DNA from: an uncultured Oscillospiraceae bacterium
GTDB taxonomy: Bacteria > Bacillota > Clostridia > Oscillospirales > Oscillospiraceae
Length of the DNA: 64,000 bases
Direction: 5' to 3'
NCBI GenBank assembly: GCA_947632175.1
Contig: CANROC010000007.1
Coordinates: 62,001 to 126,000, forward strand
In this document: positions 9,362 to 62,134 of the stretch, piece by piece
How the letters are laid out: each line of letters opens with the position of its first letter
Position numbering within the stretch: the stretch's first letter is position 1
The notes under the pieces: generated by a model
Told to the model about the DNA's origin: nothing
The model's database searches: none
Seen by the model: only the letters and a program-made list of their open reading frames with translations
Program-made: the position numbers and the translations under genes

Positions 9362-9408
9362 CGCAAATTTTTCGAGGGAGTTTGGAGAGGTGAATTGAGA
9401 TTTGCGGG

Positions 9409-9435
9409 CCTCGCACGAAAGTGCGGGGATTTTTT
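9409..9435 (+). terminator. Rho-independent terminator
   Basis: CCTCGCAC-GAAA-GTGCGGGG stem with a stable GAAA tetraloop (9409-9428), followed by ATTTTTT. It separates the DUF4406 gene from the GIY-YIG gene. Confidence 0.8.
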
Positions 9436-9479
9436 GTGCCTATTTTTGGTTTTCAGAAATGAAACGAGAGGAGGATGCC

Positions 9480-10757
9480 ATGGTTACAGTAGAAGACGTT
9501 TTGAGGCCAACTACCATAAAGGAGCTTAACGCGAAGGAGGTAGTTCCTGAGGAGGAGAATTGGAAGATGTATATCCATATCTTTCCGAACGGGAAGTATT
9601 ACGTTGGCACAACATCTAGAAGTTTTGAAGATAGATGGGATGAAGGTCGAGGGTACAATGGTCAGCGTGTAATGAGAAATGCGATCAATCGATATCGCTG
9701 GGAGAACATAATCCACGTAAAATTTGCCACAGGATTGACAAGGAAAGAAGCAATGAATATGGAAATGCTACTAATCGCAAAGCTTCATTCTAATGATAGG
9801 AGATACGGTTATAACGTTACGGCAGGCGGAGAGGGAGCAAGAGGATATAAGAGGGACGAGAAGACTATCGAGAAGCTCAGAAATCAAAAGAAGTGTATCC
9901 CAGTTGTTCAATATGACCTTGAGCTTCGCAAAGTCGCGCGATATAGGAGCGCATCAGAAGCTTCAAGAGCTACTGGCGTAGCATCTGGCGAGATTCGCAG
10001 ATGTGTATCTCACTATAAAGGAGGGACTCCTTTTACAGGCGGATTCTTATGGATTGCAGAAAGCGAAGTTGACACATTTGATTTTGATGGAATTAAAGAT
10101 GCGCTTGAGCGATACAAGCAGAAGCTTAATATGGTAATTTGCCAATTGGACGAAGATTTGAATATCATCAACACATACAATGGATATTCTGAAGCAGCAA
10201 AAGCTACTGGCGTGTTTGCATCTAATATAGCAAAATGTTGTAAGGATTGGAAGATTGGGTCTGGAAGATTATCAACAGGGGGATTCGTGTGGATATTTCT
10301 AGAAGATTACAAATCAATTGGAAAGGATACAATGTTCATGATGGTTAGAAAAATTAACCCTCCTATTTTTCAATATGATAGATATGGTAATTTTATAAAA
10401 GAGCACAAAAATATTGATGTAGCTGCGGAGGAATTAGGAGTTGGGCGTTTTACCATAATAGCGGCAATATCTGGCAGAATGAGAACATGTAAGAATTGCA
10501 TTTTAAAATTAAAGAAAGAGGAGACTGCCCCAATGAAAAAATACGATTCCGACAAAATTGTAAACCAATACACTGAGGATGGCAAATATGTGCGAACATT
10601 CCTATCTGCGGCAGATGCAGCTAGAGCAATGGGAGTTTGGGCTACTTCAATACACAAAGCATATAGTAGACATAGGACTTCGTGCGGGTTTTATTGGAAA
10701 GTTGTAGACAGTGTCGATGATACAACAGATTTAGACGTAAAATCATGGAGGCTATAA
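9480..10757 (+). CDS. GIY-YIG homing endonuclease with NUMOD repeats
   Basis: 425 residues. ATG 9480 follows GAGGAGG. The N-terminal GIY-YIG domain (about residues 22-120) shows MYIHIFPNGKYYVGTTSRS and a downstream Glu in MNMEMLLIAKL. The rest is built of four repeats of about 60 residues, each beginning with a Q-Y/L-D strand and containing an AA-x-A-x-G-V helix (near residues 140, 220, 300 and 360). These match NUMOD1-type DNA-binding modules of homing endonucleases. The gene sits after a terminator and overlaps the lysin start (TAATG). Because the lysin intron has no ORF of its own, this enzyme may cut intronless lysin alleles and help spread that intron. Confidence 0.88.
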   Translation: MVTVEDVLRPTTIKELNAKEVVPEEENWKMYIHIFPNGKYYVGTTSRSFEDRWDEGRGYNGQRVMRNAINRYRWENIIHVKFATGLTRKEAMNMEMLLIAKLHSNDRRYGYNVTAGGEGARGYKRDEKTIEKLRNQKKCIPVVQYDLELRKVARYRSASEASRATGVASGEIRRCVSHYKGGTPFTGGFLWIAESEVDTFDFDGIKDALERYKQKLNMVICQLDEDLNIINTYNGYSEAAKATGVFASNIAKCCKDWKIGSGRLSTGGFVWIFLEDYKSIGKDTMFMMVRKINPPIFQYDRYGNFIKEHKNIDVAAEELGVGRFTIIAAISGRMRTCKNCILKLKKEETAPMKKYDSDKIVNQYTEDGKYVRTFLSAADAARAMGVWATSIHKAYSRHRTSCGFYWKVVDSVDDTTDLDVKSWRL

Positions 10758-12779
10758 TGACAAACGAAATATATATCTACGATTATCTCTCGAAGGAAGG
10801 ATTTACTCCCGCTGGCGTCTGCGGTTGTCTCGGCAACTTCTACTACGAGAGTACAGTCAGGTTTGATATCGGAGAAACCGCCAGACTCACCAAGCTCGGC
10901 ATGACATCTGAGCAGTACCGTAATGCCGTAGATGACGGCACGTACACAAACTTCGTCCACGATTCCGTCGGGTGGGGAATTTTTCAGGCGACCTGGTACG
11001 AATATAAGGCTGACATTCTTTCAAGAGCCAAAGCGAAAGGAGTGTCCATAGCGGACCCGGAGATTCAGATGGCGTCGTTTGTGAACGCAATTAAGACGGG
11101 GCTCTCGGCGTTGTACTCCGTACTGACTACGGCGACAGACCCAAGGGAAGCCGCTGAAGCGGTGTTGCTGCAGTATGAAAGGCCGGCGTCCGTTCAGCCC
11201 GGAGCTGACGAGGCTGGAAAGCGGAAGGTCATCAAACAGAGAGGAGATAAGGCAGTTGAGTATTTCAATAGATTTAGCAACGCAAATATTACAGGAGGTG
11301 GCAATCAGATGAAATACAAAGATGGAGTAAATATTCCTATCCAGTGTATGCAGACCAACAGTGCCTGCTACAAGAGTACTCAGGTCATGCAGGTATACGG
11401 AGTCCTCTGGCACAGCACAGGCTGTAACAATCCCAACGTGTGGAGATATGTACAGCCGTCTGACAACGCCCCGGGCAAGGACAAGATGTTAAAACTGCTC
11501 GGGAAGAATCCCTGGGCAAATGACTGGAACCACATTTACCACGAAGCAGGTCTGAACGCCTGGATTGGTAAGCTGGCTGACGGCACGGTCGCCGCCGTTC
11601 AGACGATGCCGTGGAATTACAAACCATGGGGTTGCGGTGTGGCGTATAGCGGCGGACCGTCCTGCAACAGCCATTGGATCCAGTTTGAGATTAGTAGCAT
11701 AGTCTCCGCGTAGAGTAATCTGCGTGCAAAAATACGCGCCAAACTGCTGGAAAATCCTAAAGCCAGACAGACCACAACGCAGCGATGAAAGACGCAAACG
11801 TGATGGTTACGAAAGTAGAAAGAACTGCCCGGATGGTATAAGGTCAAATCCTAAGTACCGTAGCAATGGACAATCAGCAACCAAGCCCCGAAGAGGGGAA
11901 GGCTCAACGACTACCCGAAAGGGACCTGTGAGACAGGGGCGGCGCGCGACGACGTTTGTCGCCGAAGATATAGTCTGCACTTTGCCGAAAGGCAAAGGGG
12001 CGAATGCCCGGCGTTTTCGTCTTCAATAGGACGAACGCTAACACAATGGGTGCGAAGACAGTCTAACCGACAAGAAGTATTTCGAGCAGTGCATTGAGGA
12101 GGCCGCTCAGCTTACGGCGTATCTGTGCAAAAAGTTTGGGCTTGACCCGCATGGGACCGTAAATTTCGCGGGGAAGAAGGTTCCCGTAATCCTCTGTCAC
12201 CAGGACAGCTATAAGTACGGACTGGGCTGTAACCACGGCGATATCTACAACTGGATCAATCGCTACGGAGTTACTATGGACCAGATTCGGAACCGGGTCG
12301 CGGAGATTATGAACGAAGATTCCAAACCAGTCGCCGTGAATTACAAGGCGAAAGTCACGGCAAAGGACGGCCTGAATTGCCGGAACTACCACGGGACTTC
12401 CGGCGCAATTCTGACCAGTTTCCCGTACAACACAGTCCTCACCATCACGCAGGAGGTAGATGGTTGGGGCTACGCAAACAACACAGGCTGGGTATCTCTT
12501 GCGTACACAGCCAAAGTCAACACTATGGAGGAGGATGATGACGAGATGACATACGAAGATTTCAAGAAGTACATCCATCAGTATAGGGCGGAATTGCAGG
12601 ATAACGACGCGGAGCCCTGGAGCCAGGCGGACCGTGACTGGGCAGTTTCCATTGGTCTCATGAAGGGAAGCGGCAAGGCTGCGGACGGCTCCCCGAACAT
12701 GATGTGGGATGATTTTCTGACAAGACAGCAGGCGGCCGCACTGTTTCACCGGCTCGCTCAGTATCTCGGCAAGGCGTGA
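10757..12779 (+). CDS. Modular endolysin (lysozyme-like plus amidase plus SH3), split by a group I intron
   Basis: Two exons, 10757-11691 and 12050-12779, join in frame to give 554 residues. ATG 10757 follows GGAGG. Residues 1-150 resemble the phage tail-lysozyme domain (GVCGCLGNFYYEST, VGWGIFQATWYEY). Residues about 190-400 form an amidase_2 domain with WHSTGCNNP, WIQFEM joined across the splice site to CEDSLTDKKYF, and CHQDSYKYGLGCNHGD. An SH3-like wall-binding domain follows (KDGLNCRNYHGTSG, about 420-475). The C-terminus (WSQADRDWAVSIGLMKG) resembles an S-layer-homology-like helix pair. It digests peptidoglycan for host lysis, and three membrane-protein genes follow. Without splicing, translation stops soon after the junction and the amidase is truncated. 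Confidence 0.9.
11692..12049 (+). ncRNA. Group I intron (ORF-less) in the endolysin gene
   Basis: 358 bases. The 5' exon ends GAGAT, which pairs with GUCUC shortly inside the intron (P1, with U-G at the splice site); the intron ends in G. Core elements are visible in order: AATCAGCAACC (Q), GGCTCAACGACTA (R) and GAAGATATAGTC (S). Exon joining restores FEMCEDSLTDKK of the amidase domain. No endonuclease gene lies inside; the GIY-YIG gene directly upstream may serve it. Confidence 0.88.
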
Positions 12780-28716: not shown

Positions 28717-29262
28717 TTATCTTCTGACTTTTGTATACAGCACAACTTCGCCTGCCTGTAACGTTGCCGGCACGTCGATGATGCGCTGGTTTTCTGAGCC
28801 GCGCCAAACCAAGAAGCGGTTGGACAGCTCCTCTTTGAAGAGTCCGTCGACGCAGATGTCGACTTCCTTGAGCAATTTGCGTGCCCAGATAATCCGGAGC
28901 TGCTCGCTCCTGGTCGTTGGCTTCATGCGAAAAACGTCTTCCCACTTGTAGCCTGTCCACAGCCAGACGTTCTTGCCAATTTCGTGCACAGATTTCGTGA
29001 GGTTGACGAGCGTCTCGATGTCGGTGTGCGTCTGCCAGAGCGGGTCGCCGCCGAGTAGGGAAAGACCGGAAACTTCGGGCTTCTGAAGCTCTTGAAGAAT
29101 CATTGCGGTCTCTTTCTCTGTGTACGGATCGCCGTAGTCAAAGTTCTGCTGCTCAAAATTGAAGCACCCTGGGCAGTGGAAGTTACACCCGGAAACAAAG
29201 AGGGAGACTCGGACGCCTTCGCCGTTGGCGATGTCGTTGAAGCGAATTTTCGCGTAGTTCAT
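28717..29262 (-). CDS. nrdG: Anaerobic ribonucleotide reductase activating protein (radical SAM)
   Basis: 181 residues, ATG 29262. The cluster-binding CNFHCPGC (about residues 26-33) is the radical-SAM CxxxCxxC of NrdG, followed by SGLSLLGGDPL, the SAM-binding GGD/E motif. It forms the glycyl radical on NrdD. It lies in the same transcription direction as the split nrdD gene at 33272-38969, about 4 kb downstream of it. Its presence implies growth in an anaerobic host. Confidence 0.93.
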   Translation of the reverse strand: MNYAKIRFNDIANGEGVRVSLFVSGCNFHCPGCFNFEQQNFDYGDPYTEKETAMILQELQKPEVSGLSLLGGDPLWQTHTDIETLVNLTKSVHEIGKNVWLWTGYKWEDVFRMKPTTRSEQLRIIWARKLLKEVDICVDGLFKEELSNRFLVWRGSENQRIIDVPATLQAGEVVLYTKVRR

Positions 29263-33271: not shown

Positions 33272-36200
33272 TTAGTCGCCGCCGAGATGGACGTAACGTT
33301 CCTTAATCTCTTGCGTGCGGCCTTGGTTCCAATCATTGGTTCCGATGTAACCACTATATGGTATTATTATACCACGACTGTGAACTTTCGTAAACAGATG
33401 GACTATCTCTTCACCTTTCTCCTATTGAAGGAGTGAAGGGACCGCCACTATAAGTCTCTGAGCGTTCTCCTGTTCGGAGCTTCGTTGCTGATTGCCCAAT
33501 CTGCGCAGTTTTCGTGCGTTCGCGCTTGCGCATGTTTCATCGCTACGCTGTAGCCTGCGCGGCTCTAAGGGGTTCCCAGCAGTTCAACGGTGATTTGACA
33601 TCACATTTCTGTGAAGGCACCCATGGTTATAGGTGCGACGAGCAATGTTCATTTTGTGCTTATCTGTGTTTCCACAATTCGGACAGCGCCAGATAAGTTT
33701 TCCATTCTCGTCCTCTACAATTTCTATTTCTTTGTCGTATCCGCAGACTTGACAGTAGTCAGACTTGGTGTTCAATTCTGCGTACATGATATTGTCATAA
33801 ATGTACTTGATTACTGCGAGGACAGCTGGAATATTGTCCTCCAGGTTTGCTACTTCTATATACGAGATTGCCGAGTTAAATTTCAACCAGAAGATTCTCT
33901 CGAGTACAGTTGAGCGGGTCGCCGTCAATGTGGAAGATATTGTGAGGCGGGTCCATGTCGAAAATTACGTTTTCAACGCCTCTGATCTTCTTCGCAGCTG
34001 TGCCTGTTACAACACGCCCGTGTGAAAGGCGCCACTTTTTGTACCGAATTTGCGGAAAATCATACAAATCTACCACGAATTCCGCAATCTTATCGCAGTT
34101 CTGGTTGTATAGAGAGACGTAAACCACATCGCCTTCAATACGATACTCGTTCAGGTCATTCACAGTTCTCGGATTGTTATCCAAGAACCTGCCTTGACGC
34201 ATGATCTGACGCTTGTGTTTCTGGCAAAGTACGTAGCCGAATGCTTTGTACTTTTTATTGGATTTGCGTCCACAAATTTCGCATGTATGCATTTTCATTA
34301 CCTCCGACTATATCTTAACGGAAGAGGATTCCTCTTCTACGTTCTGTGCACTTCGAGCTGTGCTCATATCAGCCCTATTCCTAGTCTGTACACCTTCCTG
34401 AATTATCAGGCTTGGCACGGGATTGGCGTTTGCGTTCCCCGTTAGCCCTCTTGAAGGACACCCGCTGAGCGTTGCGGTTCACACAGTTTTGGGTGGCTGC
34501 TCAGGATATAGAAGTAACCACCCGGAGAAAGTAACTGGAATTCAGATTCAAACTTTAATTTCTCAAACGCACCGATGTTCTCGGTTACGTGCACCTATCG
34601 TACCCCCGCTTTCGCGGTATTTCTGAGGGAATAGACTATCTCATTATCCAGTCGCTGTTACCACAACTGGACACTCAGCACTTCCCATACGGCATTTCAT
34701 CCGTACAGTAGCCAACCCGCTTCATCCATCTTTCTTGAAATGAGCAGGGAAGGGTAGTCGTTACACTACTACATGTGTAATAGCACGGTATTATCAGCTA
34801 TCTGCAACGCAGACCTTAGATTCTCTTACGAAGCTTATTCGTGTATTTGCTTCTACCGTTAGCAGCATCTTTGCCACACCCAGCATTTGCTGGTTCACTG
34901 AGTTCTCACTAACACATTACTGTATTAGGCCACCTGATTTGATGGTAACTGTTCGTTATGTAGTTTTTATCTGTAATTCCTTCAATAATTCCAAATCTTC
35001 TTTGCAATGATTTCGCAAATTTGTAAGTCACGGATTCAATCAATAATACCCCGTGTTTCCACGTATTTACTAATAGGGTTTAGACTATATTTTAAACTGG
35101 CCCACTGTTACTGCAGGCCAGCCCACCTGTCTTTCCATGCATGATGTACCCTACTTGCCAATTGCGCCGTGTTTCTCGTACGCATTGGGGTTCGGTAGTC
35201 GTTAGAGATTTATGCTATAAGCAATTTACTACGGGATTTGCAATGTCCGCTTGGATTTAGCATTCCTTACCGGCCTTATTCATTATTCAGGTCTGCCCGT
35301 TTAGCAGGTGTATTTTCTTCATAGTGTCGCCACTATGCCGCCCTTGAACTCTCAGGCGTGCCGTAGACGGAATAATCTATGTTCTCGGCCAATTTCCATG
35401 CCTTACATTTTGCGTTCATATATTCCATAACTTGGAGTGCGAATTCTTTGGCTTCAGGATCTGTATGTGACTTTCCAGTCATTGATTTTACGCATTCATA
35501 CAGACCTGCGTATCCAAGAGAGATTGTACTGTATCCACCGTAAAGCAGCTTATCAATCTTCTCACCTTTCTTGAGACGTGCAATTGCGCCTGCCTGCCAA
35601 TGGATGGGTGATGCGTCGGAAACTGTACCGAGGAGTCTCTCGTGTCTGAGTCTTAGCGCTCTATGGCACAGTTCCAAACGGTCGTCGAGGATTTTCCAGA
35701 AGACATCGAAGTTGTGCCCTGCGGAAAGTCCGACGTCAGGGAGGTTAATTGTTACAACGCCTTGGTTGACAAATGATATCTGACATTGCTGCCAGTTTAG
35801 ACTATCTCATAACTAGAATCTCTAGTCCCACGCGCTTCGAGCAGTGGCTTCCTCTGCTCTATGTTACTTGCTATCGCGTTCACTTAGTCGTTACACCTTC
35901 CTCGAGAGAGGCTTGGCACGGTATTGTCCACGAGGGAGTTCGCCGTTAGCACCTGTAATCAGGCACACCGCTTTGCCATGCGTTCACGTGGTTTAAGGAC
36001 GCCCCAACACGCGTCAAGCGTCCGTAATACTTTGGCTTCCCTGTGTCTTGGTCGACGTAGGGAGTCAAGAAACTTCGACACAATAATATATACACTTATT
36101 GGACTATCTCTTATAGCCTAACGACTATCCTGGTGCTTTGAGCGGTGCTAATCTCCGCCCTACTCTACTCGCTTCTGCGTATTGCCGCTTTCGATAGTCT

Positions 36201-38969
36201 CTACACCTTCCTGATATTCAGGCTCGGCACGGTGTTGTTGTGCACGTTCACCGTTAGCGCCTATTTTTAGGCACACCGCTTTTGCATGCGTTCTCCAGGT
36301 TTTACATGAGCAATCGAATTATGTTTACCCCACTTACTTTGTTAATACAATTTGCAAGATTGTACGCACATTATGTGCTCTGTATATTGCTATACAGTTC
36401 GGACCATATCACTAACTTGTTTCCAAGCTATCTGCCATTTCGATTTAAGTGGACTTAGCACCCCAATGCCACACCGCCATTAGCTTGCGGCTCTACAATT
36501 GGTCTCTAGGCTTTTATGAACTGTTATATAAATTCAATTACTGAAATGCCATAATTGACGTATTTCTTTGATAGCCCTTTAAGCCAGTTTTTAACATAAC
36601 ATCTGTCGGCTTTTATCTCATTTGCGAGTTCGGTTGATGTTTCGTAGTTCTTTTCAGTGCCATCATTAAACACAACTCTATATGGCCTATAATTCTTTTT
36701 ATTTGTGAGAGATTTTCTAGCATGAAGCTCGTTCATTTCTCTTGTGCACCACTCCAAGTTCTCAGCCCTGTTATCTGTTTTGATGCCATTAATATGATTC
36801 ACTTCTTTGTACCCATTTTATTTTCAACAAAGTATGTGGCAACTAATCTATGCACAAACCATCTATCAGAACCGAGCATAACTCTTCTATATCCACACGA
36901 ATTAATATCTCCGCCAAGTATTTTGCCTGTGTTATTATTTCTCACTCTTCCTAGATTGCTAACACTGTAAATTCCATCATGGTCTTTAACTTCTTTCCAC
37001 ATTTCAATAGTATTTTCATCCATATTATCACCTCCTTTTGATAGTACATAACAGTTCAATTTAGCACGGCAAGTTGTCTCTATTGAGAGTTTCTCCGTTT
37101 AGGCAGATTTGCTTATACCGTCACCGATATAAGGCACAGGTTTGTTTATGCAGGGGTAGCAATGGCCTTCTCCATTTTTGTCTATTTTATTCTGCAGCAT
37201 CATCTTCTCAGAGATATAGTCAGGAACCATTCTCTTAGCAGTGCATTTCGCTGCGAGCTTTGTCAGGTAAAAATATTTTCCATCTTCTTCTATATTTTCC
37301 GGTTCTAGGATGTACAAAAGTTTCGGAAAAGCTGGCGTTATCCAAGCTCCTTGCTCGTTTTTGACACCCTGTGTTCTCTGCTTCAGTACCTCTTCAATCA
37401 CCATCGCGAGATCTTCTTTTGTCTGCGGATCATCAACCTCTCCGAGATACATGCAGATTGACACAAATGGAGCCTGTCCGTTTGTTGTGAGCAATGTATT
37501 GATCTGGTACTGCATTGTCTGTACTCCGTTCTTGATATCATCCCTCACACGGTCCTCAACAATGCTATCAATCTCTGTCTCTGAAAGCTTCTTAACCCCT
37601 GCTCTGTCTAGTTCCTCCAGAACCTGCTTTTTGATGAGCTTTCTGGTATCATTAACAAACGGGGCAAGATGCGACAATGTTACTGTTTGTCCTCCATACT
37701 GGGAAGACCTACCAATTTTGGTAAATACCCCCACTTTCGTGGTATTTTAAGGGAGTAGACTATACCATCACATATTGAAATATGCCAAGCATTATAGTCG
37801 TTGAGCGTTCTCCATGCGCTATGCGTTTAGGAGCTTCGTTGCGTCTGGGTAACTCGCATACCCGGTTGCCCCTGTCCTGACAATTTTTATGGTCTCTGAA
37901 GCTTTCAGCTTGTGCCGCTTTCACGTCAACCGTTTCCAGTCCCGTTGTAGCTTGCCAGGGTTATGGGGGTGTCCCCGCAATTTAGCTTGTTTAACGTGGC
38001 CTCTTCCAGTAAGCCACCTGCGCCATGATCTGAGTAGCAATCGTACAGGCTGTTGAAAACCTGTGAGGCTTCTCGACCAACACGCCATTGATCATAGTTC
38101 CGTTCTGAAGCATGTCTTCAAGATTGCATAGGCAGCAATTGAAGCTGTGCATAATGAAGTAATCTGCATCCGAAATAGCCTGTATTTTGTGCATATTGTA
38201 CACAAGCCATTCTGACTATATCATAATCTCTCCGCTATCATCACGAAGAGACCCGTGGCACTTCCACAGGACGACTTTCACGCCTGTGTACTCTATAAAG
38301 ATAGTCGATTAACCTTCCTCTCGAAGAGGCTTGGCACAGGATTCCTTACGGTTCCCTGTTAGCATGCGGATTAGACGCCATTTCCTGCGCCTCCTACAGT
38401 CCCACATACACCCCGGATTTCCGGGTTCACCACGTTTTCACTAACCTGTCACCAGATTAGGCCACAATGCTCTCATGGAAATGGATAAGCCCTTCATCAT
38501 GCGCCTGCTGGATATCCTGCGGAAGAAGCAGTCGATTCGTCATGTCTCTGCTGACTTCACCAGCCACGTAATCCCGCTGTGTGGACAGCATAATAGGATT
38601 CTTATTCGAGTTCTCTTGAATAACCTCCTCATTCACGCCATCTACCAGCGCCAGGATCTTGTTATCCAGCACTGTATCATTGCGCATATACTCATGCGCA
38701 TATCTGTACCTAATATAATTCCTCGCAGTCCGGAACTCATCTGCCCGAAACAGCTCAATCTCCACGTCATCCTGAATCTCCTCCACGGAAATTGCCCGAT
38801 TCCGCTTCTTATACCTCGTCTTCAACTTCTCTGTGATTGCCCTGGCCTTGTTGATATTCTCCTTCGAGTCCTTTACATCGTAGGTTTCATTAAACGCAGC
38901 CATAATCGCATTGAAGATCTTTGCGCGGTCGAAGTGTTCCTCACGGCCGCTCCGCTTAATCACATTCAT
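33272..38969 (-). CDS. nrdD: Anaerobic ribonucleoside-triphosphate reductase, ten exons split by nine group I introns
   Basis: Exons (minus strand): 38475-38969, 38012-38170, 37148-37707, 36327-36330, 36017-36080, 35354-35769, 34942-35040, 34517-34594, 33631-33871 and 33272-33354. They total 2199 bases and give 732 residues, a normal NrdD length. Domains: ATP-cone (residues 1-95), catalytic barrel with HFHDADYF, QVASSQYGGQ, YPCMGCRSFL (residues 402-411), [15 protein letters not shown] and [14 protein letters not shown], a zinc site CQVCG...CPNC, and the glycyl-radical end CGYIGT (Gly707). It reduces NTPs to dNTPs after activation by NrdG. The reading frame stays intact across all junctions. 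Every intron lies in a conserved motif. The last junction is the least certain. Confidence 0.9.
33355..33630 (-). ncRNA. nrdD intron 9 (group I) at the glycyl-radical site
   Basis: 276 bases. The 5' exon end CGCACCT pairs with GGGTGC inside the intron. Core elements AATCAGCAACG, CGCTCAGAGACT and AAGAGATAGTCC are visible. It splits the Cys706 codon just before radical Gly707. To keep the frame, the intron must end in A (ATATA before GTGG) rather than the usual G, so the 3' end is uncertain by a base or so. Confidence 0.78.
33872..34516 (-). ncRNA. nrdD intron 8 (group I) carrying an HNH endonuclease gene
   Basis: 645 bases. The exon end GGGTGGT pairs perfectly with GCCACCC in the intron; the intron ends in G. 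The S element GATATAGTC is at about 34310, upstream of the HNH ORF, which fills the 3' part of the intron. Joining gives LSPGG-AISYIEV. Confidence 0.88.
33876..34298 (-). CDS. HNH homing endonuclease in nrdD intron 8
   Basis: 140 residues, ATG 34298 preceded by GGAGGTAATGAAA. An N-terminal zinc-type CEICGRKSN is followed by an HNH-like core: [27 protein letters not shown], with the H-x-D/N-G-D-x-x-N pattern. It would nick or cut intronless nrdD and drive copying of the intron. The stop lies four bases before the intron's 3' end. Confidence 0.82.
   Translation of the reverse strand: MKMHTCEICGRKSNKKYKAFGYVLCQKHKRQIMRQGRFLDNNPRTVNDLNEYRIEGDVVYVSLYNQNCDKIAEFVVDLYDFPQIRYKKWRLSHGRVVTGTAAKKIRGVENVIFDMDPPHNIFHIDGDPLNCTRENLLVEI
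34595..34941 (-). ncRNA. nrdD intron 7 (group I)
   Basis: 347 bases, ORF-less. Exon end CCAT pairs with GTGG; intron ends in G. Joining gives NSYH-VHVTE. S element GAGATAGTC at about 34632. Its 5' part (GTGGCCTAAT...GTTAGTGA) closely resembles intron 1, which also follows CCAT. Confidence 0.87.
35041..35353 (-). ncRNA. nrdD intron 6 (group I)
   Basis: 313 bases, ORF-less. Exon end CGCCT pairs with GGGCG; the intron ends TATTATTG. Joining gives [13 protein letters not shown] element ATATAGTC at about 35084. Confidence 0.87.
35770..36016 (-). ncRNA. nrdD intron 5 (group I)
   Basis: 247 bases, ORF-less. Exon end GGACGCT pairs with GGCGTCC; intron ends in G. Joining gives YYGR-FNQGVV. The core ATACCGTGCCAAGCC...GGTGTAACGACTA...GAGATAGTC is nearly the same as in intron 4. 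Confidence 0.9.
36081..36326 (-). ncRNA. nrdD intron 4 (group I)
   Basis: 246 bases, ORF-less, sister of intron 5. Its guide sequence GCTCATGT (36304-36311) pairs over eight bases with GCAT-GGGT, of which GGGT is the microexon and GCAT the end of exon 3. P1 is therefore complete only after intron 3 has been removed. The intron ends TATTATTG. S element AAGAGATAGTCC at about 36100. Confidence 0.87.
36327..36330 (-). other. nrdD: Four-base microexon of nrdD
   Basis: GGGT between introns 3 and 4. With AT from exon 3 and TGT from exon 5 it spells ATG-GGT-TGT (Met-Gly-Cys), required for the near-universal PCMGCRSF motif. Intron 3 ends in G just before it. Confidence 0.82.
36331..37147 (-). ncRNA. 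nrdD intron 3 (group I) carrying a broken HNH endonuclease gene
   Basis: 817 bases. Exon 3 ends TGCAT and can pair with GTGC; the intron ends in G before GGGT. A CCGTGCTAA stretch lies at about 37045-37070, the ORF at 36524-37059, and the R/S part (AAGTCCACTTAAATCG, GTGATATGGTCC) at about 36410-36480. Joining with the microexon restores YPCMGCRSF. Confidence 0.83.
36524..37059 (-). pseudogene. NUMOD4-HNH homing endonuclease, frameshifted, in nrdD intron 3
   Basis: Upstream frame (36799-37059; ATG 37023 follows AGGAGG) has NUMOD4-like [23 protein letters not shown] and a partial HNH core [12 protein letters not shown]. The other frame continues with [19 protein letters not shown] and a C-terminal helix-turn-helix-like module. 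Adding one A to the A-run near 36820 (AATAAAATGGG) restores [14 protein letters not shown], so a single-base deletion, or an assembly error, separates the parts. The full-length product would be about 165 residues from ATG 37023. Confidence 0.8.
37708..38011 (-). ncRNA. nrdD intron 2 (group I)
   Basis: 304 bases, ORF-less. Exon end GTGGCT pairs perfectly with GGCCAC; intron ends in G before TCTTCC. Joining gives QIMAQVA-SSQYGGQ. The sequence GATGGTATAGTC at about 37757 is the S element. Confidence 0.9.
38171..38474 (-). ncRNA. nrdD intron 1 (group I)
   Basis: 304 bases, ORF-less. Exon end CCAT pairs with GTGG; intron ends in G. Joining gives LIHFH-DADYF. Core CTGTGCCAAGCCTC...GGAAGGTTAATCGACTATC and ATGATATAGTC are clear. 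Confidence 0.9.
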
Positions 38970-47504: not shown

Positions 47505-49867
47505 TTAATAAGGTTCTTCTACCTCGTGCTGACGGGCCTCTTCATAGCTGATGAGGTCTCCGTTGAACTCTATATCGATGTACTCGCCGTCCGTCATTTG
47601 CATCCCGTTTCTATTGAATGGGATTGTGAGCTTCTTGTTCCCACACTGTGGTCCGTCCTTAGCTATCTCATCTTGTGTCTTTGGCTGAATCATTATGATT
47701 GTCGACGCATTCCTGGCAATCTTCGCTGAGTCCGCAAGCTTGCCATTGATAGTAGCTTGAGCTGCAGCTAAGCCCGCCACATTCATGCTCCCACAGATTC
47801 TGTTCTTAATTGTCACTTGTGTTCGGTGCCGCATCTGCATTGTTTCTTTTCTTTCTGAATGGTTTTGCAACCGCTTCTTCAAGTGTGAGGTGCTGATATT
47901 TTATTCTTGAAAATAACGCCTTGTAATCTATCCCAAGAATATCAGCCCACTCTTTAAGTCTCTTAACTTCCCCGTTGTACTCTGCATAGAATGTGTTTTG
48001 TTTGTTATTTGCTTGTTCCTTCATTGGTATCCACTTACAATTGGATGGAGTATACCCTTTATTTACATCTATTCTTTCGAGGGTCAAAGTTTCAGCATAA
48101 CCATTACTCATGGCCCACTCTTTAAACTTAAAGTAACCATTTATGCCGTCATCCCATTCAGGGCATACTTTTATCCCTCTTCCTCCATATAAATAATAAG
48201 CTGGTGATGTTTCATTGTTACATCTATACAGCATTAGATACCAGATATTATGTATACGCTCTCTGCTATCACCGTATTTTGCCTGCGGTGGATGTTCTTT
48301 CATATATTCCGATATACGTTCCCTTCGCAGACATCCACATGATCTTGTCGGTTTTGTTTTTGCCAACAGCCCATCCTCTCTTACAATAACCATGTTCCCA
48401 CAATCGCACAAGCAATTCCAGTACTTTCTATGATGAGCCTCTGACGCTTCCGTTACCTTCTCAAAATTCCTATCAATGACAACAAGCCTTCCGAATCTTT
48501 GCCCAGTCAAGTCTCTTTCCGTTTTCGAGTCCATTTCAGCACCTCCTTTCTAAAAAATAGCAACACCTGCATTACGCCTCATGCTTTCACATGAGATCAG
48601 ACTATATCTTCGTCTTTCGACGTTATCACCACTTCGTACGTGTGCAGTCACGCACTACTCCTCGTCAGGATAGTCGTTGAACCTTCCTCTATTCAAGGAT
48701 TGGCTGCTGATTGCCCATTGTTCATACAGGCCATTTTTAACGTTCACGTACGTCTCTGTTTCAAAACCGCGTTGTAGTTGACCTGTCTTTAGGGTGTTCC
48801 AGCAATTCGATGATTTTCCACGGCTAAGCCGCTTCGGGACGCAATCCATCCACAAATTCACCAAGTTCTTGGTATGACGCAAACGCATCCGTCGATCCGT
48901 TGCCTTTAATGTAATCCACAATAAGCACATCGCACCCCATCGTGTGATACACTTTCTTGAAAATGGTATATACACTCTGTGAATCCATGATTGGCATGTA
49001 GATATGAGTAAACGACTGACGCTTCAACCATGTTATCCAGCTTTTGATGATTGATTCCTCAGACTGTGTATATGCTCCATCTCTAATCTTCCTAAACTCA
49101 ATCCTTGAAAGGTGAGCAATCAATCTACACGTGAACATACGTGTATTCAACTCACTGTCGAGATAGACAACTTTCTTGCCCTTCTTCAATAAGTCAACAG
49201 CGCAGTTCAAAAGCATCATGCTCTTTCCTTCCTTAGCTCCTGCCCCAAAAACTATTAACTCTCCTGGTTCGATATTTACATATTCATTCAGCGTTGGGAA
49301 CTTGAATGGTATGCTACCATAATTACCGCTCTGCCTTGCAACGATATCAGCCCACACATCATCAATGACATCCTTGAACTGAGGTATATCATTCTTCATC
49401 GAATACCCCATAAGAACCTCATCGATTTGTCTGTAAACGTTCTGCTCGATGTCTTCCTGTCCTTCTCTTAAGCACATGTCCTCGCACACCTTAAGCTTCT
49501 TGAACAAGTCACGCTTCAATGCGCTGTCCAAAACTGCGTTGACCGACATCATGTACCCTTCCAAGTCATGTCTTGCCAGCAGATCAGCCATCTCAACGAA
49601 CTCTTTGATTTGGTCCAAGTTGACCACATCTGAGTACATCTTCAGCGTCTCGTCCTGCTTAAGTCTGGTACTAATATTGAAAGCATCAATCTGCATGATG
49701 TTGTCATGCGCAAGCGCGGATATTGCCGCGTAAATCGCAGCATTCTGTTTATCCGAAAAATGTTTCGGACTCAGATGCTCCGAGTTAAACGCGAACTCCG
49801 GGTGGTAAACCAGAGTGTTTACCACTCCGGCCTCCGCTTGTATATTGCTTATTTCCTGTTGTGCCAT
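47505..49867 (-). CDS. dnaB: Replicative DNA helicase DnaB, split by a group I intron
   Basis: Exons 48839-49867 and 47505-47804 join to 442 residues. ATG 49867 follows GGAGGG. The N-terminal helicase domain (EAGVVNTLVYHPEFAFN, residues 8-110) is followed by the RecA-like core: Walker A FGAGAKEGKSMML, Walker B DVLIVDYIKG, then the intron, then ICGSMNVAGLAAAQAT and the arginine-finger region SAKIARNAST. It unwinds the replication fork. Reading through the junction without splicing stops after five codons and loses motif H4. The exon 1 end is placed by alignment with DnaB length; its P1 pairing was not found. Confidence 0.9.
47805..48838 (-). ncRNA. Group I intron in dnaB carrying an HNH endonuclease gene
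   Basis: About 1034 bases. Core elements GGCAATCAGCAGCC, GGAAGGTTCAACGACTATC and AAGATATAGTC (about 48600-48720) lie upstream of the endonuclease ORF. The 3' end is G directly after the ORF stop. The 5' end is approximate. Confidence 0.85.
47806..48534 (-). CDS. HNH homing endonuclease in the dnaB intron
   Basis: 242 residues, ATG 48534 after AAAGGAGG. RDLTGQRFGRLVVIDR, the zinc-type WNCLCDCG...SCGCLRRER, then IHNIWYLMLYRCNNETSPAYYLYGGRGIKVC and LERIDVNKGYTPSNCKWI match a phage HNH family frequent in introns; a C-terminal module (LKEWADILGIDYKALFSRI) looks like a DNA-binding helix-turn-helix. Its TAA ends one base before the 3' splice site. Confidence 0.88.
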   Translation of the reverse strand: MDSKTERDLTGQRFGRLVVIDRNFEKVTEASEAHHRKYWNCLCDCGNMVIVREDGLLAKTKPTRSCGCLRRERISEYMKEHPPQAKYGDSRERIHNIWYLMLYRCNNETSPAYYLYGGRGIKVCPEWDDGINGYFKFKEWAMSNGYAETLTLERIDVNKGYTPSNCKWIPMKEQANNKQNTFYAEYNGEVKRLKEWADILGIDYKALFSRIKYQHLTLEEAVAKPFRKKRNNADAAPNTSDN

Positions 49868-49878
49868 CCACAACCCTC

Positions 49879-50658
49879 CTAGGCGTTCAACCAAAAATCA
49901 CAGTAGTCGTGTCTGTCACATAAGTATCTACAAAAGAAGTAGTCGGTTTCGGGATAGAAGCTTGTCGTCTTAGCGATTTCGTCCACCTTGTCTTTGACCC
50001 ACTGCTTTGTCTCCTCAAAAGTTTCCTGCACGAAAGGCTCCTCAATGAACCCTCCTTTTCTGAAACAGTTGAAACACAGTTTATCAGGAAGTTTGCCGTA
50101 CTTTTCTTCGACAGGAATTGCGTAGATGTACAACTGCTTGAGCTTTTTATCCAGCAACTCATCTGTCTTCGTCGGCTTCTTTCGCTTTGAACGCGGCTTC
50201 ATTTCGGACGATTTGTGGTCAACCACCATCAGCTCTCCGTTCTCATTCTCAAGAACCAGATCGATGATACCTGTCATTTTGATGTCTCCGATGTTGAAAT
50301 TGTGTGAACCCTCAACCTCCAAAATATTTCCTTTCGGAAACTCCATGTTCTTCAGGTACGAAAGTCCAGCATCGAAGTACGTCGTAATCAAACTTGGAAG
50401 ACCACGAGTCTCTGAAACCATGCTGTAATCCTTCACGAATTTTGACTGCAGTTCCTCTTTTGTGTACTCGCCTTTGAGGTAACTGGCAATCAATTCATGC
50501 ATCGTCTTGCCATATGTTGAAAAGAAGAGATGCTCGTTTTTCACACCAGGATACAGGATGTACTTCAAATACCACTGATACTTGCAGTCGTCATACGCTG
50601 TAAGCCTGGTGTGACTCCAAGTCATATCTCTTATCAACGGTTCATAGTTAACACTCAC
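49879..50658 (-). CDS. PD-(D/E)XK nuclease, Cas4/RecB-like
   Basis: 259 residues, ATG 50658. An N-terminal WSHTRLTAYDDCKYQWYLKYI with one Cys, the nuclease core GIIDLVLENENGELMVVDHKSS (D-x(n)-D-x-K), the Q-x-x-x-Y motif KLKQLYIYAI and a C-terminal cysteine cluster CRYLCDRHDYC. One N-terminal and three C-terminal Cys is the iron-sulfur arrangement of Cas4/AddB-type exonucleases. It likely resects DNA ends to feed the ERF annealing protein two genes upstream. Confidence 0.87.
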   Translation of the reverse strand: MSVNYEPLIRDMTWSHTRLTAYDDCKYQWYLKYILYPGVKNEHLFFSTYGKTMHELIASYLKGEYTKEELQSKFVKDYSMVSETRGLPSLITTYFDAGLSYLKNMEFPKGNILEVEGSHNFNIGDIKMTGIIDLVLENENGELMVVDHKSSEMKPRSKRKKPTKTDELLDKKLKQLYIYAIPVEEKYGKLPDKLCFNCFRKGGFIEEPFVQETFEETKQWVKDKVDEIAKTTSFYPETDYFFCRYLCDRHDYCDFWLNA

Positions 50659-61063: not shown

Positions 61064-62134
61064 TTATTCTCTCCCGTTCCCCTGGTAAGCAGATTTTGTT
61101 TCCGGATTAATTGTCCTTCTTGATAATCCTGCGCAGCTGGCCTTTAGCGGCCTCTTTTTTTGCTGCTTCATCTTGTCTCTGAACTCAAGATACTGCCGAG
61201 TGTATTCATACGAAATCCCGAACACATTCTCTGCTGCGATACCAAGCTGTGGTTCATGCTTATGCAGTATCTCAAGTTCCTGCTCGAAGTTTTTTCCGAA
61301 CGGACATCCGACACATCCAGTCCGTTTCAATCCATATTCTGTATAGCAACGACTGTGAACAATCCCGTAGTGTTTGCAATACTCGTCCTTATCAGAATCT
61401 TCAAACCAAAATATCGGACGGAACATGTCGGTCCTTCCGTTCTCGCCAGATGAAAAACAATCTGTAAATGTGCCGGAACGGATTCCGCCCTCCGCCTTTC
61501 TAACGCCGGTGCAACCCATATCAAAATCTCTGCCCTTCTCAAATCGATGCGAAACCTTCTTCTTTGCGTACTCGCAACACATATCAGAAACCTTAAACTG
61601 TGGCGGATTCTGGATCATAAACTCCTTTAAGAACGGCGCACGGTCAATAAAATACAAATTCGATTTTCCTGTCCTCTTATTACACCACCATTCAAGCGCT
61701 GTCTTGCAGTGTGGATACTCTTCAATCAATTCTTCAAAAGGCTTATCTTCCCATTTAAAACCGTGTTTCTGGAGACGATAAATCATTTCAGATGCATGCT
61801 TGCCCCAGAATGGAATCCCGTATTCTCTGCATGAAGTTGGGATTGACTTCACGGCACGGACACGCTCGATATGAATTTTGTATTTTTCTTCAAGTTCGTC
61901 CAGGTGTTCAAGAGTGGCTTTGTACTCAAGACCAGTATTGAAAAACACGAATGTGGTCTTATCTCTTCCGCCGCATCTCAAAATCATATCCAGCATAACA
62001 TCGCTGTCCGCTCCTCCTGAGATTGAACACATCACATTATTGTGCTCACGCAAAACCTCATAGCACTTTTGCAACGCATTTTTGATAACAAAGTTATCTG
62101 GCGCGCTACTCAGGATCTCCTCAATATCTACCAA
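61064..62134 (-). CDS. Phosphoadenosine phosphosulfate reductase-family protein (DndC-like ATP pyrophosphatase)
   Basis: 356 residues from TTG 62134, nine bases after GGGAGG; no better start is seen. The PP-loop SISGGADSDVMLDMIL (about residues 38-53), FFNTGLEYKATLEHLDEL, then cysteines in DMCCEYAKKK and a C-terminal CVGCPFGKNFEQE. The PP-loop and cysteine placement match PAPS reductase/DndC-type enzymes, which activate a substrate with ATP and handle sulfur, often with an iron-sulfur cluster. With the cysteine desulfurase it could form a sulfur-transfer pair. Confidence 0.82.
   Translation of the reverse strand: MVDIEEILSSAPDNFVIKNALQKCYEVLREHNNVMCSISGGADSDVMLDMILRCGGRDKTTFVFFNTGLEYKATLEHLDELEEKYKIHIERVRAVKSIPTSCREYGIPFWGKHASEMIYRLQKHGFKWEDKPFEELIEEYPHCKTALEWWCNKRTGKSNLYFIDRAPFLKEFMIQNPPQFKVSDMCCEYAKKKVSHRFEKGRDFDMGCTGVRKAEGGIRSGTFTDCFSSGENGRTDMFRPIFWFEDSDKDEYCKHYGIVHSRCYTEYGLKRTGCVGCPFGKNFEQELEILHKHEPQLGIAAENVFGISYEYTRQYLEFRDKMKQQKKRPLKASCAGLSRRTINPETKSAYQGNGRE

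Follow-up and report, generated by a model that had tools for sequence, protein, structure and literature searches.

Nine group I introns in one phage nrdD gene, two of them four nucleotides apart

The closest described systems are summarized here from the accessible parts of the papers cited. Among the genes of nucleotide metabolism, those for ribonucleotide reductase are the most frequently interrupted (PMC3653736). In the Jug gut phages, nrdD is fragmented in 95 of 104 genomes, and RNA reads support 37 of 76 predicted group I introns (PMC12363816). Genes with two or three introns each occur in the Bastillevirinae phages, with exon skipping in SIOphi (PMC11878797), and crAss-like Zeta phages show a high intron density, with the MCP gene in five fragments (PMC7886860). 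For very short exons, the Ceratocystis mitochondrial introns SPAM3 and SPAM7 enclose a single-base exon, and the same source cites other organisms with exons of 3 bp and of 1 bp (PMC8208691). The mitochondrial cox1 gene of Agaricus bisporus spans 29.9 kb and holds 18 group I introns and one group II intron, in which eroded endonucleases are common (PMC2987802).

The window examined here, by which we mean the whole 64-kb stretch of DNA, runs from base 62001 to base 126000 of a contig that is 147,029 bases long and bears an exact terminal repeat of 77 bases. This contig, which carries genes for terminase, DNA polymerase, primase, helicase, endolysin and integrase, probably represents all or almost all of a phage genome, and no near relative of window positions 20000-44000 was found among phage records. 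An earlier note on this DNA had proposed that the class III ribonucleotide reductase gene of the phage, nrdD, is divided by nine group I introns into ten exons between 33272 and 38969, and that the exons join to a continuous 732-residue NrdD with its conserved motifs restored. Exact coordinates, reading frame and intron models now agree on this structure. The gene lies on the minus strand, with its ATG at 38969 and a stop codon that ends at 33272; the joined exons amount to 2199 nt (732 codons plus stop), exceeded by the 3499 nt of the introns. Borders were set from protein alignment together with U and G at the intron ends, and were then tested. The parts of the gene are as follows.

38475..38969, minus strand: exon 1, 495 nt (165 codons); ATP cone and beginning of NRDD
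38171..38474, minus strand: intron 1, group I, 304 nt; R1 9.7e-15
38012..38170, minus strand: exon 2, 159 nt (53 codons); from protein alignment
37708..38011, minus strand: intron 2, group I, 304 nt; ectopic relative of introns at the RTCG/Y site
37148..37707, minus strand: exon 3, 560 nt (186 codons and 2 nt)
36331..37147, minus strand: intron 3, group I, 817 nt; HNH homing endonuclease ORF within
36327..36330, minus strand: exon 4, 4 nt, GGGT
36081..36326, minus strand: intron 4, group I, 246 nt; R1 1.7e-19
36017..36080, minus strand: exon 5, 64 nt
35770..36016, minus strand: intron 5, group I, 247 nt; R1 2.9e-22
35354..35769, minus strand: exon 6, 416 nt
35041..35353, minus strand: intron 6, group I, 313 nt; RF00028 6.3e-5 genome-wide
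34942..35040, minus strand: exon 7, 99 nt (33 codons)
34595..34941, minus strand: intron 7, group I, 347 nt; R1 1.7e-12
34517..34594, minus strand: exon 8, 78 nt (26 codons)
33872..34516, minus strand: intron 8, group I, 645 nt; ORF 3' of the S element; R1 1e-15
33631..33871, minus strand: exon 9, 241 nt; Cys4 motif; ends with RRT and 1 nt
33355..33630, minus strand: intron 9, group I, 276 nt; RF00028 53.2 bits, above cut-off
33272..33354, minus strand: exon 10, 83 nt; rest of the Cys codon, then GYIG to the stop

The ORFs that hold exons 1, 3, 6 and 9 were searched separately against Pfam, and each matched NRDD (38457-38969 at 9.4e-10, together with ATP-cone at 4.8e-19; 37099-37734 at 1.9e-36; 35333-35677 at 7.7e-28; 33584-33928 at 2.9e-17). 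The matched profile ranges, 1-48, 99-256, 308-415 and 471-539, are collinear, in keeping with the membership of the joined protein in the NrdD families. The intact nrdD genes of relatives align without a break across the junctions of the window gene, and all 26 residues of exon 10 are identical to those of the relative locus L287. Exon 9 carries CQVCGY...CPNCG, which we take to be the Cys4 site of NrdD, and intron 9 splits the motif TCGYIG, presumably the glycyl radical region. Across the 2199 exon nt there is neither a stop nor a frameshift. Compared with the nearest relative of each exon, codon positions 1, 2 and 3 differ 151, 93 and 458 times over 727 codons, and the third position is the most changed in all nine exons that are long enough for testing. 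The phage also has nrdG on the minus strand at 28717-29262 (NrdG 2e-44; phrog_626 1.6e-47).

An in-frame stop lies within 75 nt of the start of each of the nine introns, which rules out inteins as the identity of the inserts. Because of these early stops, NrdD protein is impossible from unspliced RNA, and the gene, to judge from its reading frame, should work only if the introns are precisely spliced out. We infer that all nine are removed in the cell, and that the supply of dNTPs relies on this splicing. The same assembly carries two other nrdD genes, one in an open frame of 750 aa (contig C1) and one in an open frame of 777 aa (contig C3), so that the cell may have other dNTP sources.

The group I identity of the inserts was examined with covariance models. 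Across the 3.5-Mb assembly, the Rfam model RF00028 matched introns 9 (1.4e-12), 6 (6.3e-5), 1 (0.0014), 3 (0.0019), 5 (0.0024) and 7 (0.13), with intron 9 the only one of the nine to pass the Rfam cut-off. Introns 2, 4 and 8 were missing from this genome-wide match list; intron 8 searched alone gave a partial RF00028 match of 12 bits, and introns 2 and 4 searched singly with Rfam gave no match. Since Rfam was thus insufficient, a covariance model, R1, was built without using this nrdD, from eight introns that other genomes (viral contigs and one bacterial genome) carry at seven loci; a mixed alignment of 14 introns was discarded for modelling as too gappy, at 506 columns. On the 64-kb window, R1 recovered introns 5 (2.9e-22), 4 (1.7e-19), 8 (1e-15), 1 (9.7e-15), 7 (1.7e-12), 6 (6.1e-5) and 2 (0.078), all as rough E-values, together with two introns besides those of nrdD, and the next match stood at 0.37. 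When R1 was run on nrdD alone with filters off, intron 9 was matched at 0.016 and intron 3 by two partial matches (0.041 and 0.32). Intron 2 matched a sequence profile of four relatives' introns over almost its full length (E 8.9e-53), and the relatives' introns themselves by nhmmer at 1.6e-27 to 3.8e-25. The weakest core evidence appears to be that of intron 3, where the Rfam match (0.0019) lies below the cut-off and is backed by introns at the same site in other genomes. Covariance searching over nrdD, which the earlier note had expected to reveal group I structure, does so for most inserts, by R1 for introns 1 and 4 to 8, by Rfam for intron 9 and weakly for intron 3.

R1 also matched seven further introns on the same contig (C7) outside nrdD, two of them just 0.4 kb apart, which with the nine in nrdD makes at least 16 group I introns on the contig; one more match lies on a separate 3.5-kb contig, C66.

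48578-48872 of the window, minus strand: group I intron scoring 66.3 bits with RF00028, at the end of the DnaB-like helicase ORF 48824-49894; the HNH endonuclease ORF 47806-48534 then follows
11682-11997 of the window, plus strand: group I intron scoring 66.0 bits, at the end of the endolysin ORF 10745-11713; adjoins the homing endonuclease ORF 9402-10757
Contig C7: group I introns by R1 at L095 8532-8723 and 9101-9295, L096 2974-3136 and 16581-16722, and L097 3163-3312
Contig C66: group I intron by R1 at L101 1424-1583

The splice sites were assessed by the pairing of the flanking exons with the internal guide of each intron. In all nine introns the last base of the 5' exon is U and the guide starts no more than 20 nt from the intron start. 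The P1 helices of introns 1 to 9 comprise 4, 6, 4, 9, 7, 5, 4, 7 and 6 bp, and a helix with an equal or better score is found at fractions of 0.27, 0.03, 0.27, 0.003, 0.01, 0.07, 0.27, 0.01 and 0.03, respectively, of the U-ending window positions. Taken together, the nine helices give a Fisher p of 6.6e-6 against U-ending window positions, a statistic that, like those for P10, carries some selection because the splice sites were picked using the protein alignment; the 4-bp helices of introns 1, 3 and 7 are individually not significant, being equalled at 27% of U-ending positions. The P10 helices comprise 5, 6, 5, 6, 5, 6, 2, 2 and 7 bp, where, as for P1, the counts for intron 4 and for the 3' exon of intron 3 assume a spliced neighbour. 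Their sum of 44 was reached by none of 20000 random 3'-exon sets and by none of 20000 sets in which the nine 3' exons were permuted, with introns 7 and 8 at chance level (30% and 32% of random 3' exons do as well) and intron 5 modest (10%). Pairing of exon ends with a guide had been claimed for eight introns; it is borne out for these eight, and the proper count is nine, with only 4 bp in introns 1, 3 and 7.

The terminal base is G in eight of the nine introns. For intron 9 the G assumed earlier gives way to an A if the frame is to be kept. This A-ending border was accepted because it keeps the frame of RTCGYIG and yields the best P10 of the nine, at 7 bp, and we take the terminal A to be either a real oddity or a sequencing error. 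Two other borders were judged by eye and rejected: with a G one base later the frame is broken, and an earlier G, although in frame, would put six extra residues into RTCGY at the cost of the 7-bp P10.

Only the four bases GGGT, exon 4, separate the end of intron 3 from the start of intron 4. At L130 and L136, an intron homologous to intron 3 with the same start base is followed by GGGATGT or GGGTTGC and no second intron, and at five other loci (L079, L251, L295, L317 and L245) an intron at the site of intron 4 is preceded by an unbroken ATGGGT. A scan of viral contigs extended both observations. ATGGGT stands immediately 5' of an intron 4-type start in 22 of 31 pattern stretches, the remainder being four without it and five not displayed since no nrdD fixed their strand; nrdD was recognised in 18 of the 22 at the score limit used, and one of the 22 is the contig of L245. 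Likewise, an intron 3-type start lies at GCAT of nrdD in six of seven pattern matches, among them the contigs of L130 and L136. As introns of both types occur singly elsewhere, the window holds both.

As RNA, exon 4 reads GGGU; it forms P10 of intron 3 by pairing with ACCU, and P1 of intron 4 by pairing with the guide of that intron. Because the same four bases are needed in both helices, the two cannot coexist. P1 of intron 4 has 4 bp with intron 3 present and 9 bp after intron 3 is removed (UGCAUGGGU with GCUCAUGUA). Intron 3 would usually leave before intron 4, an order that is favoured and not proven, because intron 4 has its 4-bp P1, equal to those of introns 1, 3 and 7, even before intron 3 leaves. 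Skipping of exon 4 would shift the nrdD frame, and the spliced junction with exon 4 kept is predicted to read TGCATGGGTTGTCGA. A separate observation, made by eye, concerns the nrdD genes of L121 and L246: each has an apparent intein just ahead of the CRSF cysteine, the very residue at which intron 4 ends in the window gene. This conserved position of nrdD seems to serve introns and inteins alike.

Relative nrdD loci, chosen by short peptide patterns, were fetched at the best 80 per scan, giving 391 loci, 219 of them distinct. Among these 219, 190 have no insert in nrdD, 22 have one, six have two and one has three, and none has more than three; both strands were read, and the counts serve as a guide and not a census, since a few inteins or in-frame inserts are included and very short exons may escape. 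Outside this count, L447 also has three nrdD introns, at the sites of introns 3, 5 and 7, and the distant locus L432 has up to four group I model matches near nrdD, some perhaps halves of one intron, with only two inserts by its protein pieces.

Seven of the nine sites in the window gene are intron-bearing in other genomes, one to three at a time: those of intron 1 (L238, L317, L207), intron 3 (L130, L136, L446, L447, L450, L451), intron 4 (the five loci with ATGGGT named above), intron 5 (L138, L216, L447), intron 6 (L450), intron 7 (L238, L130, L107, L365, L447) and intron 8 (L138, L451). No same-site relatives of introns 2 and 9 were found among the relative nrdD loci examined. For 14 of 17 relatives, the first 70 nt of the intron match best the window intron at the same site, and the other three are swaps between introns 1 and 7, which have in common a CCAT target and a GUGG guide; some of this similarity is to be expected on functional grounds alone, because each guide has to match its own site. 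Summed weak BLAST pieces were rejected as a same-site test, being dominated by the long intron 3 and placing the same-site intron first in about half of the relatives. The pattern of same-site occupancy is, on this comparison, that expected of homing. Other nrdD intron sites are empty in the window gene: TTNG/Q (used in L079, L361 and L214), QYG/GQ (L238) and RTCG/Y (L020, L339, L222, L230, L295, L312 and L330).

The relatives of intron 2 in L312, L230, L295 and L330 sit at RTCG/Y, close to the end of nrdD. In L312, the target GTGGCT and the guide GGCCAC are identical to those of intron 2, and the 3' exons differ; the targets in the other three are one base off. An identical 6-nt target and guide with a different 3' exon makes reverse splicing likelier than an endonuclease that reads both sides of the site, and intron 2 probably moved between nrdD sites by reverse splicing, on evidence that is circumstantial. 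The invasion of nrdD by homing or reverse splicing, as suggested before, is upheld by the seven shared sites and this ectopic relative.

Two of the introns contain ORFs, as listed below, and no minus-strand ORF longer than 54 aa lies wholly inside any of the other seven.

36799..37059, minus strand: intron 3 endonuclease, first half (NUMOD4), Pfam 5.6e-13
36524..36802, minus strand: intron 3 endonuclease, second half (HNH_3), Pfam 2.5e-7
33876..34298, minus strand: intron 8 ORF, 140 aa

The NUMOD4-HNH endonuclease of intron 3 (36524-37059) is divided between two overlapping frames. The ORF of intron 8 resembles a 227-aa protein from an nrdD intron of Enterocloster phage CB473P1 (BLASTP 1e-29, 36%) and has no Pfam and no PHROG match. 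Neither ORF looks whole as an endonuclease gene. Directly 3' of the S element of intron 8, a GGAGGT that resembles a ribosome-binding site precedes the ORF (34298-34320, minus strand); translation of the ORF and the ribozyme core may compete.

Several other explanations of the locus were considered. That most introns spread within this genome, by reverse splicing or template switching, and did not home from other phages is unlikely: introns 1, 4, 5 and 8 do share core similarity (72-81% over 39-112 nt), introns 1 and 7 have similar guide regions and CCAT targets, and intron 2 is an ectopic relative, but seven sites are occupied at the same position in other genomes and 14 of 17 relatives are closest to the same-site intron. 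Slightly less probable still is that nrdD is a decaying pseudogene in which some introns are splicing-dead, NrdD is not made and another NrdD of the host cell serves. The open-frame nrdD genes on C1 and C3 would allow this, and the intron 3 endonuclease in two frames, the intron 8 ORF shorter than its relative and the final A of intron 9 could be read as decay; against it stand 2199 exon nt without a stop or frameshift, substitutions mostly at third positions in each exon tested and the retention of nrdG in the same phage.

We regard it as very improbable that introns 3 and 4 form one composite unit (a twintron) or have other borders, leaving no 4-nt exon. An exon of four nucleotides is extreme, and GGGT is all that lies between the two introns; yet homologues of intron 3 end before the GGG of the Gly codon where intron 4 is absent (L130, L136, L447), intron 4-type introns follow ATGGGT where intron 3 is absent (the same five loci and 22 of 31 pattern stretches), and the four bases are required for the conserved CMGCRS codons. 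An assembly artefact or chimera is hardly credible. The source assembly does comprise 82 contigs, but the contig of 147,029 bases has an exact terminal repeat, the inserts are distinct (the best intron pair reaches only 87% over 39 nt) and seven inserts lie at sites used in other genomes.

The reading we prefer, and hold with high confidence, is that the phage nrdD collected nine group I introns that are self-spliced to give the NrdD mRNA, most of them having homed and intron 2 having been reverse-spliced. It builds on the anatomy, frame, site homology and pairing observed in the nrdD introns, from which we infer cellular splicing, its order and the routes of mobility. The nrdD of a 147-kb phage, found in a bacterial genome assembly, would have gathered most of its nine introns by site-specific homing from nrdD genes in other phages, given that introns occupy the same sites in those genes, and intron 2 was probably relocated within nrdD sites by reverse splicing. 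In each transcript, the internal guide of every intron would form P1 with the last bases of the exon before it and, in seven introns, also P10 with the first bases of the exon after it; the introns would leave through ordinary guanosine-initiated self-splicing, and the joined exons would encode a 732-residue NrdD activated by the phage's own NrdG. Introns 3 and 4 appear to have settled four bases apart, with exon 4 used twice (intron 3 P10, intron 4 P1), and this double need would make their removal sequential.

A stronger version joins three claims: that the order of introns 3 and 4 is forced, as a group I ratchet, that intron 2 transposed by reverse splicing, and that splicing forms a slow, multi-step gate on dNTP synthesis. 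This combination is conceivable, with the balance leaning slightly against it. In the ratchet, exon 4 would act first as the P10 partner of intron 3 and, once joined to exon 3, would supply P1 of intron 4; no group I ratchet at a micro-exon is described in the accessible parts of the literature searched. If the joint claim is true, the nrdD with early stops in every intron would be such a gate. With one 5.7-kb transcript, three questions become testable: the folding and splicing of nine ribozymes within a single bacterial RNA, the ability of adjacent group I introns to impose a splicing order, and the movement of group I introns by reverse splicing and subsequent reverse transcription. A 2014 review, in its accessible part, knew of no direct experimental evidence for this last route (PMC3984707).

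Compared with known systems, again as far as the accessible parts of the sources extend, the locus resembles T4 nrdD (sunY) in that a group I intron interrupts a phage nrdD; the T4 gene has one intron, at a position unused in the window gene, which has nine (PMC3653736). The nrdE of Brochothrix phage A9 has three introns and an intein-encoded endonuclease, against nine introns here (PMC3653736), and a Jug phage nrdD in a figure legend has four fragments, against ten exons (PMC12363816). The Bastillevirinae reach at most three introns per gene (PMC11878797), and the crAss-like Zeta phages at most four insertions per gene in the examples given (PMC7886860), where the window gene again has nine. 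The earlier note knew of no phage gene with nine introns, and this agrees with the literature searched, subscription journals being largely outside it: none was found there, and the maximum is about four insertions in one gene. Within that literature, this nrdD is the most intron-rich phage gene, and exon 4 is the shortest phage exon to lie between two group I introns. Among the nearest to exon 4 is the "small exon" of phiNIT1, for which the accessible text gives no length (PMC11878797). In the SPAM3/SPAM7 pair, as in introns 3 and 4, removal of the first intron creates the binding site of the second; that pair lies in a fungal mitochondrial rnl and uses IBS/EBS pairing as in group II, with its class not stated in the accessible text (PMC8208691), whereas introns 3 and 4 belong to group I, interrupt a protein gene of a phage, and have P10 and P1 helices that compete for the exon. 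The cox1 of Agaricus bisporus is likewise one gene serving as a group I reservoir, with nrdD a compact phage gene of 5.7 kb (PMC2987802). The nine-intron nrdD is an extreme case of a known kind, and its 4-nt exon is the one new structural feature.
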